A DNA stretch of 48,528 nucleotides from a bacterium HR24 (GTDB taxonomy: Bacteria > Chloroflexota > Dehalococcoidia > SM23-28-2 > HRBIN24). A model generated the notes under the pieces. That model was not told the origin of the DNA and made no database searches. It saw nothing but the letters and a program-made list of their open reading frames with translations. The stretch is from contig BEIA01000003.1 of assembly GCA_002898715.1 (NCBI GenBank), forward strand, positions 1 through 48,528. Reading direction: 5' to 3'. The position numbers and the translations under genes were made by a program. This document shows, piece after piece, positions 3,239 to 9,499 of this stretch (position 1 is its first letter; each line of letters begins with the position of its first letter).

Positions 3239-3267
3239 TTGACACAGGGCGGGGGCCATGGTAGCAT
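3239..3267 (+). promoter_or_regulatory. Sigma70-type promoter for riboswitch transcript
   Basis: TTGACA (3239-3244), 17-nt spacer, TAGCAT (3262-3267), about 25 nt upstream of the riboswitch P1 5' strand. Confidence 0.7.
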
Positions 3268-3291
3268 ACGCACTCGACAACAGAATATGGC

Positions 3292-3425
3292 CCCTCTTAT
3301 CCAGAGTGGTGGAGGGAACGGCCCGGTGAAGCCCGGCAACCGGCCGGGGCCTGCCTGAGCAGCGAGCGAGGCCCCTGCAGCGGTGCCAACGCCGTCCCCG
3401 CCTCCGGCGGGGGACGATAAGGGGG
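3292..3425 (+). ncRNA. SAM-I (S-box) riboswitch
   Basis: Core CTTATCcAGAGtGGtgGAGGGAacGGCCCggTGAAgCCCgGCAACC ... GGTGCCAA ... GATAAG; P1 5' strand 3292-3301 pairs with 3416-3425. Sits upstream of a thrC-like gene. Confidence 0.93.
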
Positions 3426-3442
3426 AGAAAAGGCGAAGCAAG

Positions 3443-3475
3443 GCCTCTTCTCGACACCGGAAGGGGCTTTTATTT
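3443..3475 (+). terminator. Intrinsic terminator (riboswitch expression platform)
   Basis: GCCTCTTCT (3443-3451) pairs with GGAAGGGGC (3459-3467), followed by TTTTATTT; candidate antiterminator 3425-3434 (GAGAAAAGGC) pairs with 3443-3452. Confidence 0.78.
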
Positions 3476-3571
3476 AGCCAGGCGGAGGCAGAGCAGGGGC
3501 GAGGGACGCAGAGGCCAGGCCACAGCCGGCGGGCGGTCGGGCCCGCCATTTCCGGCAGGAGGTCTGGTGCC

Positions 3572-4822
3572 ATGTCCTTCGCGAAGAACCTGCGCTGTCG
3601 AGAGTGCGGGCGACTCTACCCGCTCGACCCCATCTACGTCTGCGAGTTCTGCTTCGGGCCCCTGGAGGTCATGTACGACTACGAGGGGCTGAGACGGCAC
3701 CTCACCCGCGAGCGCATCGAGCAGGGGCCACTGACTATCTGGCGCTACGCCGACCTCCTGCCTGCCCAGGGCGAACCGGTGGATATCGGCGCCGGCTTCA
3801 CCCCCCTGCTGGAGGCCCGCAACCTGGGCCGTGCCCTGGGGCTGCGCCGCCTTTACCTGAAGAACGACTGCGTGAACCCCACCTGGTCGTTCAAGGACAG
3901 GGTGGTGTCGGTGGCGGCTACCAAGTCTCGCGAGTTCGGCTTCGACACCCTGGCCTGCGCCTCCACTGGCAACCTGGCCAACTCGGTGGCCGCCCATGCC
4001 GCCCGGGCCGGGCTGCGCGCCCTGGTCTTCGTTCCCGCCGACCTGGAGGTAGGCAAGATGCTGGGCTCGGCGGTGTACGGCCCGGTGCTGGTGGCCGTGC
4101 GCGGCTCCTATGACGACGTGAACCGCCTCTGCAGCGAGCTGGCCGAGAAGTACCGCTGGGCGTTCGTCAACATCAACGTCCGGCCCTACTACGCCGAGGG
4201 CTCCAAGACCCTGGGCTACGAGGTGTGCGAGCAGCTAGGCTGGCGCGTGCCCGACCACTGCATCGTCCCCGCTGCCAGCGGCTCCCTCTTCACCAAGATC
4301 TACAAAGGCATCAAAGAGCTGGCCTGGCTAGGCCTGGTAGAGTGGCGACAGCCGCGCATGAGCGTTGCCCAGGCCCTGGGCTGCTCCCCTATCATCGAGG
4401 CCTGGGAGCGCAACAGTTTCGACATCCGCCCCCAGCGGCCCCGTACCATCGCCAAGTCTCTGGCCATCGGCAATCCGGCTGACGGCTATTATGCCCTCAA
4501 GGTGCTGGCAGAGACGGGCGGCTACGGCGTGGCCGTCAGCGACGAGGAAGTGGTGGAAGGGATGAAACTGCTGGCTGAGACAGAGGGCATCTTCGCCGAG
4601 ACAGCCGGCGGCGTGGTGGTGGCGGCCCTGCGCCGTCTCGTCCAGCAAGGGCGTATCGACCCGGACGAGACTGTGGTAGCCTTCATTACAGGGGCAGGAC
4701 TGAAGACGGCCGAGGCGGTCCAGGATGCCCTCAACGAGCCGGTGCTGGTGGAGCCCAGCATCGCCTCGTTCGAGGAGGCGATGGCCCAGCGGAGCGGCGC
4801 CCTGCCCACTGCCCGGGGATAG
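3572..4822 (+). CDS. Threonine synthase-like PLP enzyme with N-terminal zinc ribbon
   Basis: MSFAKNLRCRECGRLYPLDPIYVCEFCFGPLEV; PLP lysine motif NPTWSFKDR; STGNLANSVAAHAA. ATG 3572 with RBS GGCAGGAGG; the longer ORF start at 3383 lies inside the riboswitch. Confidence 0.85.
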   Translation: MSFAKNLRCRECGRLYPLDPIYVCEFCFGPLEVMYDYEGLRRHLTRERIEQGPLTIWRYADLLPAQGEPVDIGAGFTPLLEARNLGRALGLRRLYLKNDCVNPTWSFKDRVVSVAATKSREFGFDTLACASTGNLANSVAAHAARAGLRALVFVPADLEVGKMLGSAVYGPVLVAVRGSYDDVNRLCSELAEKYRWAFVNINVRPYYAEGSKTLGYEVCEQLGWRVPDHCIVPAASGSLFTKIYKGIKELAWLGLVEWRQPRMSVAQALGCSPIIEAWERNSFDIRPQRPRTIAKSLAIGNPADGYYALKVLAETGGYGVAVSDEEVVEGMKLLAETEGIFAETAGGVVVAALRRLVQQGRIDPDETVVAFITGAGLKTAEAVQDALNEPVLVEPSIASFEEAMAQRSGALPTARG

Positions 4823-4831
4823 GAGTCGGCT

Positions 4832-5074
4832 GTGGCCAGGCAACGAGTCAAGTTCACTTTCCCGCCCGACCTGATCCAGGAGCCCATTATCTGGCGGCTG
4901 GGCCGGCACTTCGACCTGGTGACCAATATCCGCCGGGCCGACGTGACCGAAGACCGGGGCTGGGTAATACTGGAGCTGGAAGGGGAATTGGAAGAGATCG
5001 AGCGGGGCATCCGCTGGGTCCAGGAACAGGGGGTGCGGGTGGACCCCGTCCCCGGCGACATCGTGGAGGGCTAG
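4832..5074 (+). CDS. NIL domain-containing protein, stand-alone (80 aa)
   Basis: VKFTFPPDLIQEPIIWRLGRHFDLVTNIRRADVTEDRGWVILELEGELEEIERGIRWVQEQGVRV matches NIL-domain pattern. Confidence 0.82.
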   Translation: MARQRVKFTFPPDLIQEPIIWRLGRHFDLVTNIRRADVTEDRGWVILELEGELEEIERGIRWVQEQGVRVDPVPGDIVEG

Positions 5075-5082
5075 AGGAGGAC

Positions 5083-5358
5083 ATGAGCGTCACGGTACGC
5101 ATACCTACACCGCTGCGCAGCCTCACTGGCCAGCAGGACGTGGTGGTCGGTGATGGCGGCCGCCTGATCGAGTGCATCGAGGCCCTGGATGCCCAGTACC
5201 CGGGCCTGAAGGAGAGGCTGGTGGACGAGGCGGGCCAGATACGCCGCTTCGTCAACATCTACGTCAACGGCGAGGACGTCCGCTTCCTGCAGGGCCTGGA
5301 GACGCCCCTCAAGCCGGGGGACGAGGTGAGCATCGTCCCGGCCGTCGCCGGTGGCTAG
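5083..5358 (+). CDS. MoaD/ThiS family ubiquitin-like sulfur carrier, CysO-like (carrier 1)
   Basis: 91 aa ending exactly in GG: RRFVNIYVNGEDVRFLQGLETPLKPGDEVSIVPAVAGG*. Confidence 0.9.
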   Translation: MSVTVRIPTPLRSLTGQQDVVVGDGGRLIECIEALDAQYPGLKERLVDEAGQIRRFVNIYVNGEDVRFLQGLETPLKPGDEVSIVPAVAGG

Positions 5359-5646: not shown

Positions 5647-5688
5647 TGTTGAGGGAATTAGTCTACTTTTTTGCCCAGGGCGAGCGGC

Positions 5689-6132
5689 ATGCGCATTTCT
5701 ACCAAGGGCGATTACGGCATACGGGCCCTCATCGAGCTGGCCCACCACTACGGCGAGGGGCGGCCCATCCAGAGCAGCGAGATAGCAGCCCGGCAGCGGA
5801 TACCCGAGTCCTACCTGGAGCAGCTCCTCGCTACCCTGCGCCGGGCCGGCCTCATTCGCTCCATCCGGGGGCCCGCGGGCGGTCACTCACTGGTCCGCCA
5901 CCCCGACGAGATCCGGGTGAGCGAGGTTGTGCAGGCCCTGGAGGGCAGGATCATGCCCATCGAGTGTCTGGACGACTCGTCGGAGTGTAGCCGCAGTGGC
6001 GGCTGTGCCCAGCGGGAGATGTGGGAACGGGTCCAGCAGGCCATTCTGGATGTGCTGGAAGGCACCACTATCGGCGAGCTGGCGGCCAAGGACAGGCAGC
6101 GGGCAGTGAGGGCAGACCGGTATGTCATCTGA
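5689..6132 (+). CDS. Rrf2 family transcriptional regulator (CymR/IscR-like)
   Basis: [68 protein letters not shown]; directly upstream of cysK. Confidence 0.92.
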
Positions 6133-6142
6133 GGTACGGGCC

Positions 6143-7063
6143 ATGGCCAGGCGAGGCCGCATTGCCGACAGCGTCCTGGACCTCATCGGCGATACGCCCA
6201 TGGTGCGTCTGCGGCGTGTGGTGCCGGACGGCGCGGCCGAAGTCCTGGCCAAGCTGGAGTCCCTCAACCCTGCTGGCTCGGTCAAGGACCGCATCGCCCT
6301 GGCCATGATCGAGGACGCCGAGCGGCGTGGGCTCCTCAAGCCCGGGGACACCATCGTGGAGCCTACCAGCGGCAACACCGGCATCGGCCTGGCCATGGTG
6401 GCCGCGGTCAAAGGCTACCGCCTCATCGTTACCATGCCCGAGGACATGAGCCTGGCCCGCCGCGACCTGCTGGCCCGCTTCGGGGCGGAGGTGGTGCTCA
6501 CGCCCGCCATCGAGGGCATGACCGGCGCCGTCTATGCTGCCGAGGAGCTGGTGCGCAACAACCCTGGCTATTTCATGCCCCAGCAGTTCGAGAACCCCGC
6601 CAACCCGGAGGTCCATCGCCGCACTACTGCCCTGGAGATCCTGGAGGCCACCGGCGGACGCCTGGACGCCTTCGTCGCCGGGGTCGGCACCGGGGGCACC
6701 ATCACCGGCGTGGGCGAGGTGCTCAAGGAACACGACCCGAGCATACAGGTGATAGCGGTAGAGCCCTCCCGCTCGCCGGTACTGCAGGGCGGGCGGCCGG
6801 GCCTGCACGGCATCCAGGGCATCGGCGCCAGCTTCGTGCCCGGGGTGCTCAACCGGCGCATCATCGACCGGGTGATAGGTGTGAGCGACGAGGAGGCCAT
6901 GGCCATGGCCCGCCGACTGGCTCGGGAGGAGGGGCTGCTGGTGGGCATTTCGGCCGGGGCCAACGTGGTGGCGGCCATAAAGGTGGCGCGGCGTCTCGGG
7001 AAGGGGAAGCGGGTGGTCACCGTCCTGCCCGATACGGGCGAGCGTTACAGCTTTACGGAGTGA
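6143..7063 (+). CDS. cysK: Cysteine synthase A (O-acetylserine sulfhydrylase); alternative ATG at 6122
   Basis: [62 protein letters not shown]. Confidence 0.9.
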
Positions 7064-7079: not shown

Positions 7080-8171
7080 TTGGCGGTGAACGTCTACATA
7101 CCGACGCCGTTCCGCAAGCTGGCGGGGAACCAGGCCTACGTGCAGGCCGAGGGCCAGACGGTGCAGGAGGTGCTGGAGCACCTGGCCCGGCGCTACCCGG
7201 GCCTGGCCACCATGGTCTTCGATCAGGATCGGCGCATCCAAGCCCACATCAACGTCTACCTGAACAGCCAGGAGATCCACAGCCTGCAGGGGCCCGATAC
7301 GCCGGTGCGCGATGGCGACGAGGTGGCCGTAATCCCTGCCCTGGCGGGCGGACAGGTGCTCACGCCGGAGCAGGTCATGCGCTATTCGCGGCACATCATC
7401 ATGCCCCAGGTGGGGCCAGTGGGCCAGCGCAAGCTCATGGCCGCCAGGGTGTTGGTGGTGGGCGCGGGTGGCCTGGGCGGGCCGGCCGCCCTGTACCTGG
7501 CGCTGGCCGGGGTCGGGACCATCGGCATAGTCGATTTCGACGTGGTGGACCTGTCCAACCTGCAGCGGCAGGTCCTGCACCAGAACGACGACGTGGGCAA
7601 GCCCAAGACCCAGTCGGCCAAGGAGACGCTCCTCGCCTACAACCCGGACGTGAACGTGGTGCTGCACGAGGCGCCCCTCACGTCCGACAACGCCATGGAC
7701 ATCATCCCCCAGTACGACATCGTCATAAACGGGGCCGACAACTTCACTACCCGCTACCTGGTCAACGATGCCTGTTACTTCGCCCGCAAGCCGCTGGTAG
7801 ATGCTGCTATCCTGATGTTCGATGCCCAGCTGACGGTGTTCGTGCCCGGACAGGGCTGCTACCGCTGCCTGTTTCCTTCGCCGCCGCCGCCCGGCGCGGT
7901 GCCCAACTGCGCCGAGGCAGGGGTGCTGGGGGCGCTGACCGGTGTCATAGGCTCGCTGCAGGCCATCGAGGCCATGAAGCTCATCCTGGGCATCGGCGAG
8001 CCCATGGTGGGCAGGCTGCTGCTCTACGATGCCCTCTCGGGGGAGTTCCGGGTGGTGAAGGTGCGGCGGGACCCCAAGTGCCCGCTGTGCGGCGACGACC
8101 CCACCATCACCGAGCTCATCGACTACGAAGGGTTCTGCGGCGCGCCCTTCCCGGGTCGGGACGAGGCGTAG
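7080..8171 (+). CDS. Fusion of MoaD/ThiS-like sulfur carrier with MoeB/ThiF E1-like adenylyltransferase (carrier 2)
   Basis: N-terminal ubiquitin-like domain to ALAGG, then QVLTPEQVMRYSRHIIMPQVGPVGQRKLMAARVLVVGAGGLGG...; Zn motifs CYRC and CPLC; NCAEAGVLGALTGVIGSLQAIEAMK. Confidence 0.92.
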   Translation: MAVNVYIPTPFRKLAGNQAYVQAEGQTVQEVLEHLARRYPGLATMVFDQDRRIQAHINVYLNSQEIHSLQGPDTPVRDGDEVAVIPALAGGQVLTPEQVMRYSRHIIMPQVGPVGQRKLMAARVLVVGAGGLGGPAALYLALAGVGTIGIVDFDVVDLSNLQRQVLHQNDDVGKPKTQSAKETLLAYNPDVNVVLHEAPLTSDNAMDIIPQYDIVINGADNFTTRYLVNDACYFARKPLVDAAILMFDAQLTVFVPGQGCYRCLFPSPPPPGAVPNCAEAGVLGALTGVIGSLQAIEAMKLILGIGEPMVGRLLLYDALSGEFRVVKVRRDPKCPLCGDDPTITELIDYEGFCGAPFPGRDEA

Positions 8172-8202: not shown

Positions 8203-8220
8203 GAAGTGCGGGCAGGTGCC

Positions 8221-8505
8221 ATGACGGTCGAAGTGAGGCTGACGGCCAACCTCCAGCGCCTGGCCGGGGGCCAGCGCGCGGTGCAGGTGGAGGCCCACAC
8301 GGTGGGCGAGCTCCTCGAGCGCCTGGACCATATGTACCCGGGCTTCAAGAGCAGCGTACTCGATAACGGTCAGTTGCACCGCTTCGTCAACATCTTCCTG
8401 AACGACGAGGACATACGCTTCCTGCAGCAACTGGAGACCCCCCTGAAGGACGGGGACGTGGTCTCCATCTTGCCGGCCCTGGCCGGGGGACAAAGTGGGC
8501 CCTGA
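8221..8505 (+). CDS. CysO-like ubiquitin-fold sulfur carrier with C-terminal extension after GG (carrier 3)
   Basis: LHRFVNIFLNDEDIRFLQQLETPLKDGDVVSILPALAGGQSGP*; ATG 8221 (ORF track GTG 8206 in frame). Overlaps the start of cysM. Confidence 0.9.
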   Translation: MTVEVRLTANLQRLAGGQRAVQVEAHTVGELLERLDHMYPGFKSSVLDNGQLHRFVNIFLNDEDIRFLQQLETPLKDGDVVSILPALAGGQSGP

Positions 8506-9499
8506 AGGAGTCGGCTCCAGGGGCGAGGGGCCCTTGGCAGTTGTCAGGCGGGGCGGTCGCGTCTACGGCAACATCCTGGAGTGCATAGGCGACACGCCCC
8601 TGGTGGAGCTGCGCAGCTTCAGTCCTAAGCCGGGGGTGCGCATATTCGCCAAGCTGGAGGGCCAGAACCCCACCGGCAGCCTGAAGGACCGCATCGCCCT
8701 GTACATGATCAGGGCGGCCGAGGAGTCGGGACAGCTCACCCCGGGCAAGGTCATCCTGGAGCCCACCAGCGGCAACACCGGCATCAGCCTGGCCATGGTG
8801 GCCAGGATGAAGGGCTATCGTCTCATCTGCGTCCTGCCCGATAACGTGACCCCGGAGCGCGAGCAGCTCATTCGCTCCTTCGGCGCCGAAGTGGTGTATG
8901 CCCGCGGCGCCCGCTCCACCAACGACGCCATCGCCCTGGCCCAGAAGATGCTGGAGGAGGACCCCGAGCGCTACTACATGCCCTACCAGTACGGCAACGA
9001 GCACAACCCCCGCGCCCACTACGAGACCACTGCCGAGGAGATCATCCGCGACCTGCCCGAGGTGGACGTGTTCGTGGCGGGGCTGGGCACCGGTGGGACG
9101 CTGACGGGAGTGGGGAGGCGCCTCAAAGAGCACAATCCCAACGTGAAGGTGGTAGCCACCGTGCCTCACCCGGGAGACCTTGTACAGGGCCTGCGCAGCC
9201 TGGAGGAAGGTTTCATCCCGCCGGTGCTGGACGAGTCGGTGCTGGACGGCCGCTTCGTGGTGGACTCTCGTACCTCCTTCGCCATGACGAAGGAACTGCT
9301 CGAGCGGGAAGGCATCTTCGCCGGCATCTCTTCCGGAGCGGTGCTGAGGACGGCCCTCAAGGTGGCCGAACGCCTGGAGCGGGGCAACATCGTCTGCCTT
9401 CTCGCCGACGGCGGCTGGAAGTACCTGTCTACCGGCCTCTGGCTCAAGACCTACGACGACCTGCGCCCCGAGGACGTGGAAGGCAAGGTCTGGTGGTAG
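8495..9499 (+). CDS. cysM: Cysteine synthase, CysM-type (carrier-dependent, probably O-phosphoserine-using); alternative TTG start at 8534
   Basis: [44 protein letters not shown]-terminal [30 protein letters not shown] like M. tuberculosis CysM. Confidence 0.9.
   Translation: [334 protein letters not shown]

Follow-up and report, generated by a model that had tools for sequence, protein, structure and literature searches.

A probable MetM/MetO-type homocysteine synthase operon with an added NIL-domain protein in bacterium HR24 (Chloroflexota)

Related systems and the layout of the HR24 operon

MetM of Streptomyces albulus is reported to be a homocysteine synthase that uses O-phosphohomoserine, with a SAM riboswitch upstream of its gene and metO adjoining (Hasebe et al. 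2024, AEM 90:e01247-24, cited in PMC12172450). Compared with what that citing paper relates of the Streptomyces system, the operon of the uncultured bacterium HR24 is alike in having a ThrC-homologous enzyme, an adjacent carrier and an upstream SAM riboswitch, in a genome where no conventional homocysteine pathway was detected; it differs in having a NIL gene between metM and metO, in the ThiS-ThiF fusion and cysteine cluster nearby, and in its phylum, Chloroflexota. The CysM/CysO/Mec+ system of Mycobacterium tuberculosis also combines a fold-type II PLP enzyme, an O-phospho amino acid and the thiocarboxylate of a GG-tailed carrier, and a JAMM peptidase is encoded in the HR24 genome as well. 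However, its product is cysteine and its enzyme belongs to the CysK/CysM family, and HR24 has a separate CysM/CysO-like pair at 8206-9499. The HcyS/HcyD/HcyF system of Wolinella likewise uses a protein thiocarboxylate for homocysteine, but works with MetY (PF01053), and no such enzyme was detected in the HR24 genome. In the DUF39 (HcyBio) pathway with NIL/ferredoxin and COG2122, a NIL domain accompanies the homocysteine-forming enzyme, as in HR24, whereas that pathway starts from aspartate semialdehyde, DUF39 was not detected in HR24, and the HR24 NIL protein has no ferredoxin domains and an NI-R rather than an NI-L motif.

Within the window (the whole stretch of DNA analysed, 48,528 nucleotides), the following features make up the operon and its candidate activating enzyme:

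3239-3267, + strand: promoter-like site, TTGACA, 17-nt spacer, TAGCAT and extended -10 (10 of 12 consensus positions)
3294-3423, + strand: SAM-I riboswitch aptamer (S box leader; RF00162, 71.8 bits)
3443-3475, + strand: putative intrinsic terminator of the riboswitch, a hairpin with arms of 8 bp (3443-3450 and 3460-3467) followed by UUUUAUUU (folding)
3572-4822, + strand: metM-like gene for a ThrC homologue (PLP fold type II, with a Cys4 ribbon), proposed to make homocysteine from O-phosphohomoserine
4832-5074, + strand: free NIL-domain protein of 80 aa, starting with GTG; proposed subunit for methionine sensing or substrate binding
5083-5358, + strand: metO-like gene, ThiS/MoaD-like (SAMP1-like) sulfur carrier, C-terminal GG exposed without processing
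7080-8171, + strand: ThiS-ThiF fusion, a candidate carrier-activating enzyme of the E1 type

The riboswitch, ThrC-like enzyme, NIL protein and carrier form one tight operon, with gaps of only 9 bp between the metM-like and NIL genes and 8 bp between the NIL and metO-like genes, and with a ribosome-binding-site-like sequence before each of the three genes. These four components had been named in a preliminary description of the DNA, and profile matches and coordinates place all of them where it had put them. One promoter-like site was found against 0.3 expected in shuffled sequences. The arrangement is not a chance one, since in most of 58 related loci this enzyme has the NIL protein and/or the carrier beside it, and in 30 of them a SAM riboswitch lies upstream of the MetM-class gene.

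The aptamer match (gathering score 44.4, E 6e-15) is the only RF00162 match in the 2.05-Mb host genome, which is about 92% complete. By folding, a terminator hairpin lies behind the aptamer, and an alternative hairpin (3425-3452) uses its 5′ arm. The terminator was absent from the promoter/terminator pattern scan, the hairpin loop exceeding the length which that scan permits. Strict mutual exclusion of P1 and the alternative hairpin was not seen on folding, and the wiring of the switch therefore remains inferred. In S-box riboswitches in general, SAM switches the operon off by termination; with the riboswitch present here as sequence and its wiring modelled on that general case, plentiful SAM would shut off the HR24 operon.

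The MetM-like enzyme and the homocysteine routes of its host

The enzyme encoded at 3572-4822 has an N-terminal Cys4 ribbon and matches PF00291 (248 bits), and it scores above the cut-offs of both NF006050 (316.8 bits; cut-off 303) and TIGR00260. Its matches among 301 Chloroflexota genomes form two classes separated by a gap, one at 48-73% identity (E < 1e-95) and the other at about 41% or below. A tree was reconstructed from 71 sequences of the first class together with solved threonine synthases, the second copy of the host and other ThrC-like proteins. All 71 MetM-like sequences form one clade (local support 0.84; 0.94 for the next node within, of 67 sequences), which leaves out the solved ThrC proteins and the ThrC of the host itself.

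The clade has 28 diagnostic positions, all of them common to a Nonomuraea protein (L073) and an Actinomycetes MAG protein (L057). The PLP-binding loop, PVGNAGN in ThrC, is of the P-x-A-S-G-S type in the clade (PAASGSL in the HR24 enzyme), EPASA is replaced by ETAGG, also in HR24, and NPYRxEGQKT by RPYYxEGSKT. The canonical signatures PVGNAGN and EPASA, found in solved ThrC, are absent from the HR24 enzyme. The actinobacterial reference for MetM was the protein of Nonomuraea gerenzanensis (L073, from a plasmid collection), standing in for the S. albulus MetM sequence; it is 52% identical to the HR24 enzyme and carries every diagnostic residue, and its locus, with a SAM riboswitch immediately before the gene and a GG-ending carrier immediately after it, is laid out like metM/metO of S. 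albulus. Five other Chloroflexota proteins (L131, L133, L136, L137 and L139) belong to another ThrC-like subfamily with a PTGGGTG loop and an SFKAR-type motif, and are neither ThrC nor MetM by motifs.

The host genome carries a separate canonical thrC (G000:C47; TIGR00260, 320 bits; PVGNAGN loop), a homoserine dehydrogenase gene (hom) on the same contig and a homoserine kinase gene (thrB, C21). A third ThrC candidate, on C80, was rejected as TrpB. Family searches of this approximately 92% complete genome found no enzyme of PF01053, to which MetB, MetY, MetZ and MetC belong, and no DUF39 (PF01837), nor any MetH-type methionine synthase (PF02574, PF02965). For MetX there were only weak matches over short stretches, none above the TIGR01392 cut-off; that cut-off was missed even in genomes known to have MetX (control search), so that only the weakness and shortness of the host matches are telling. 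With no PF01053, no DUF39 and no MetX above the cut-off, MetM is the only homocysteine route detected.

These results bear on the central proposal of the preliminary description, that the ThrC homologue makes homocysteine from O-phosphohomoserine and a thiocarboxylated carrier, for which it had looked to a separate canonical thrC and to the absence of metY, metB and metZ. The canonical thrC is there, and neither PF01053 nor DUF39 was detected while hom and thrB are present; together with the position of the enzyme in the MetM clade, this supports the proposal, which is very probably right. Chemistry of this kind is already known from MetM/MetO of Streptomyces and is not new.

A wider comparison used 80 Chloroflexota genomes, 40 with and 40 without a MetM-class enzyme, hand-picked from the list of matches. 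No other homocysteine route was found in 24/40 genomes with MetM, compared with 1/40 without it (Fisher p 1.4e-8, a value that overstates independence, as the genomes are related, partly incomplete and hand-picked). DUF39 occurred in none of the 40 MetM genomes versus 14 of the 40 others, and PF01053 in 16/40 versus 29/40. In this sample, MetM largely replaces the classical and DUF39 routes, and the pattern is strong. An exception is locus L064 (G282:C1), where a PF01053 gene ends about 20 bp before metM; this genome also has a second NIL elsewhere.

The NIL protein, the carrier and alternative readings

The NIL protein (PF09383, 57.1 bits; gathering score 24) is the only NIL of the host genome. 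Of the 58 related loci, 47 have a NIL within the flank fetched with metM, and metM-linked NILs were found across Chloroflexota, Omnitrophota, Elusimicrobia/Endomicrobia and Manganitrophus/Troglogloeales MAGs; none was present in the fetched flanks of the Nonomuraea cassette or of the Nitrospinaceae and Dadabacteria metM loci. In the 80-genome sample, NIL occurred in 30/40 genomes with MetM, leaving about a quarter without, in all 14 genomes with DUF39, where it adjoins and follows the DUF39 gene, and in 3/26 genomes with neither, two of these three looking like MetN by frame length. As NIL stands beside both MetM and DUF39, the domain is common to two unrelated homocysteine synthases, and because it is lacking in the actinobacterial cassette and in about one in four MetM genomes, the chemistry does not require it. 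A free NIL protein of the NI-R type was also seen in a genome without a MetM-class enzyme (L099, G198), and in four genomes of one genus NIL forms part of open frames (431-960 aa) located on a different contig from metM (G008:C8, G045:C14, G053:C34, G125:C24).

An AlphaFold2 model of the NIL protein has a beta-alpha-beta-beta-alpha-beta fold (pLDDT 91), and its eleven best PDB matches are all NIL domains of MetN/ABC transporters (Foldseek E 1e-6, TMq 0.8). The predicted fold is thus that of the MetN C2 (NIL) regulatory domain, with the methionine-binding Asn295 kept; in contrast to MetN, the HR24 NIL is a free 80-residue protein beside a biosynthetic enzyme and is not fused to an ABC ATPase. 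Its residue N32 aligns with N295 of MetN, where the N295A change abolished L-methionine binding at the C2/NIL domain and raised the Ki 28-fold (PMC12357092). N32 does not vary: 52/52 cassette NILs have it, as do 13 NILs linked to DUF39 and the MetNs used for comparison, while the third motif residue is Arg (NI-R) in 52/52 cassette NILs versus Leu (NI-L) in 13/13 DUF39-linked ones.

The NIL protein is probably a subunit that senses methionine or binds a substrate; a ligand-binding and probably methionine-sensing role is favoured, and a partner in substrate handling is the main rival. That it serves as the methionine sensor of the pathway is a tentative reading, and the proximity of the genes suggests that it may contact MetM. 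Somewhat unlikely is a catalytic or sulfur-relay role, as presumed for NIL/ferredoxin with DUF39. Such a partner would fit the occurrence of NIL after DUF39 in all DUF39 genomes and with MetM in most MetM genomes, and its near absence otherwise, and Desulfovibrio and Methanosarcina need NIL/ferredoxin to synthesise homocysteine (PMC5764234). However, the HR24 protein has neither a cysteine nor a ferredoxin domain, and the lack of cysteine speaks against NIL itself relaying sulfur; moreover, about a quarter of MetM genomes manage without NIL, and in its fold and conserved Asn the protein agrees with the MetN regulatory domain. On the sensor reading, free NIL would be a methionine-sensing or homocysteine-binding regulatory subunit acquired separately by DUF39 and MetM, and in the MetM branch it would form a separate NI-R subfamily and add feedback at the protein level to the control by the SAM riboswitch; this is conceivable, and put forward with some reserve. 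Literature searches returned nothing on MetM together with NIL, and the conserved NIL protein beside metM looks to be a new part.

The carrier (PF02597, 71.1 bits) ends in ...VPAVAGG followed directly by the stop codon. About half of the MetM-linked carriers end exactly in GG and the others have 1 to about 14 further residues, which would need trimming. A MetO-like carrier gene is near MetM in 52/58 related loci, and in one (L056) carrier and ThiF share a single frame. Because ThiF-type activating enzyme genes adjoin metM/metO in many other loci, the ThiS-ThiF fusion at 7080-8171 is the candidate E1 for MetO, and we infer that it activates the carriers of HR24, MetO included. The ThiS part of this fusion has an internal ...LAGGQ, so its own GG is not free unless cleaved. 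The neighbouring cysteine cluster consists of an Rrf2/CymR-like gene (5671-6132), CysK (6122-7063) and the CysO-like/CysM-like pair (8206-9499), in which the carrier ends in ...LAGGQSGP, needing trimming, and overlaps the CysM-like gene.

It is improbable that homocysteine is made from O-phosphohomoserine and free sulfide, with the carrier serving another process. Sulfide can serve related enzymes of fold type II (CysK, archaeal O-phosphoserine sulfhydrylase), and no adjoining carrier was detected in a few MetM loci (L019, L021, L024, L032 and L052), but in 52 of the 58 loci MetM has a carrier beside it, often with a ThiF-type E1, and the thiocarboxylate of MetO is reportedly the sulfur donor in Streptomyces. 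Very unlikely is a second, SAM-regulated threonine synthase, the name that automatic annotation would give. It is favoured by the NCBIfam models, which call the enzyme threonine synthase above cut-off, by the conserved SFKDR lysine motif, and by a MetM homologue from a cyanobacterium for which threonine synthase and deaminase activities but no clear part in methionine metabolism were reported (PMC12172450); the models and this homologue also count against the MetM reading. Against a threonine synthase, the contig with hom also carries a canonical ThrC, the PLP-binding loop and the motifs around it show conserved differences from ThrC, neither SAM control nor linkage to a sulfur carrier would make sense for a threonine enzyme, and the genome would be left without a detected homocysteine route.

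Proposed pathway and significance

Judged from its sequence, the operon is very likely a MetM/MetO-type homocysteine synthase module, to which a NIL protein would have been added. In the proposed pathway, the E1-like ThiF protein would adenylate the C-terminal GG of the carrier, and a sulfurtransferase would convert it to the thiocarboxylate. Hom and ThrB, whose genes were found, would supply O-phosphohomoserine, from which MetM would eliminate phosphate to give a PLP-bound vinylglycine intermediate. Addition of the thiocarboxylate sulfur at the gamma carbon would then yield homocysteine, either directly or as a carrier adduct that, by analogy with MetM/MetO and CysM/CysO, would be released by the JAMM peptidase of the genome (C33), which has an intact HSH...S..D motif. 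NIL would most probably bind methionine or a close analogue, such as homocysteine, via the site corresponding to MetN C2, and could inhibit MetM as a feedback subunit (the favoured option) or assist substrate or sulfur handling.

With the NCBIfam equivalog model NF006050 ('threonine synthase'), the MetM-like protein of HR24 passes the cut-off, and so does a close relative (L034); genes of this kind therefore probably bear the wrong name in public annotation. The MetM/MetO route is spread widely through Chloroflexota and is also present in several further phyla whose genomes seem incapable of methionine synthesis, and there the MetM enzyme carries the annotation threonine synthase. Price et al. 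(2018, PMC5764234) remarked that for several thermophilic autotrophs one or more homocysteine pathways had yet to be found, and MetM is a candidate. The sharing of NIL by two unrelated homocysteine synthases, with the methionine-binding Asn of MetN kept, gives the domain a testable role, and if the sensor reading is true, the pathway may gain a feedback sensor besides its SAM riboswitch.
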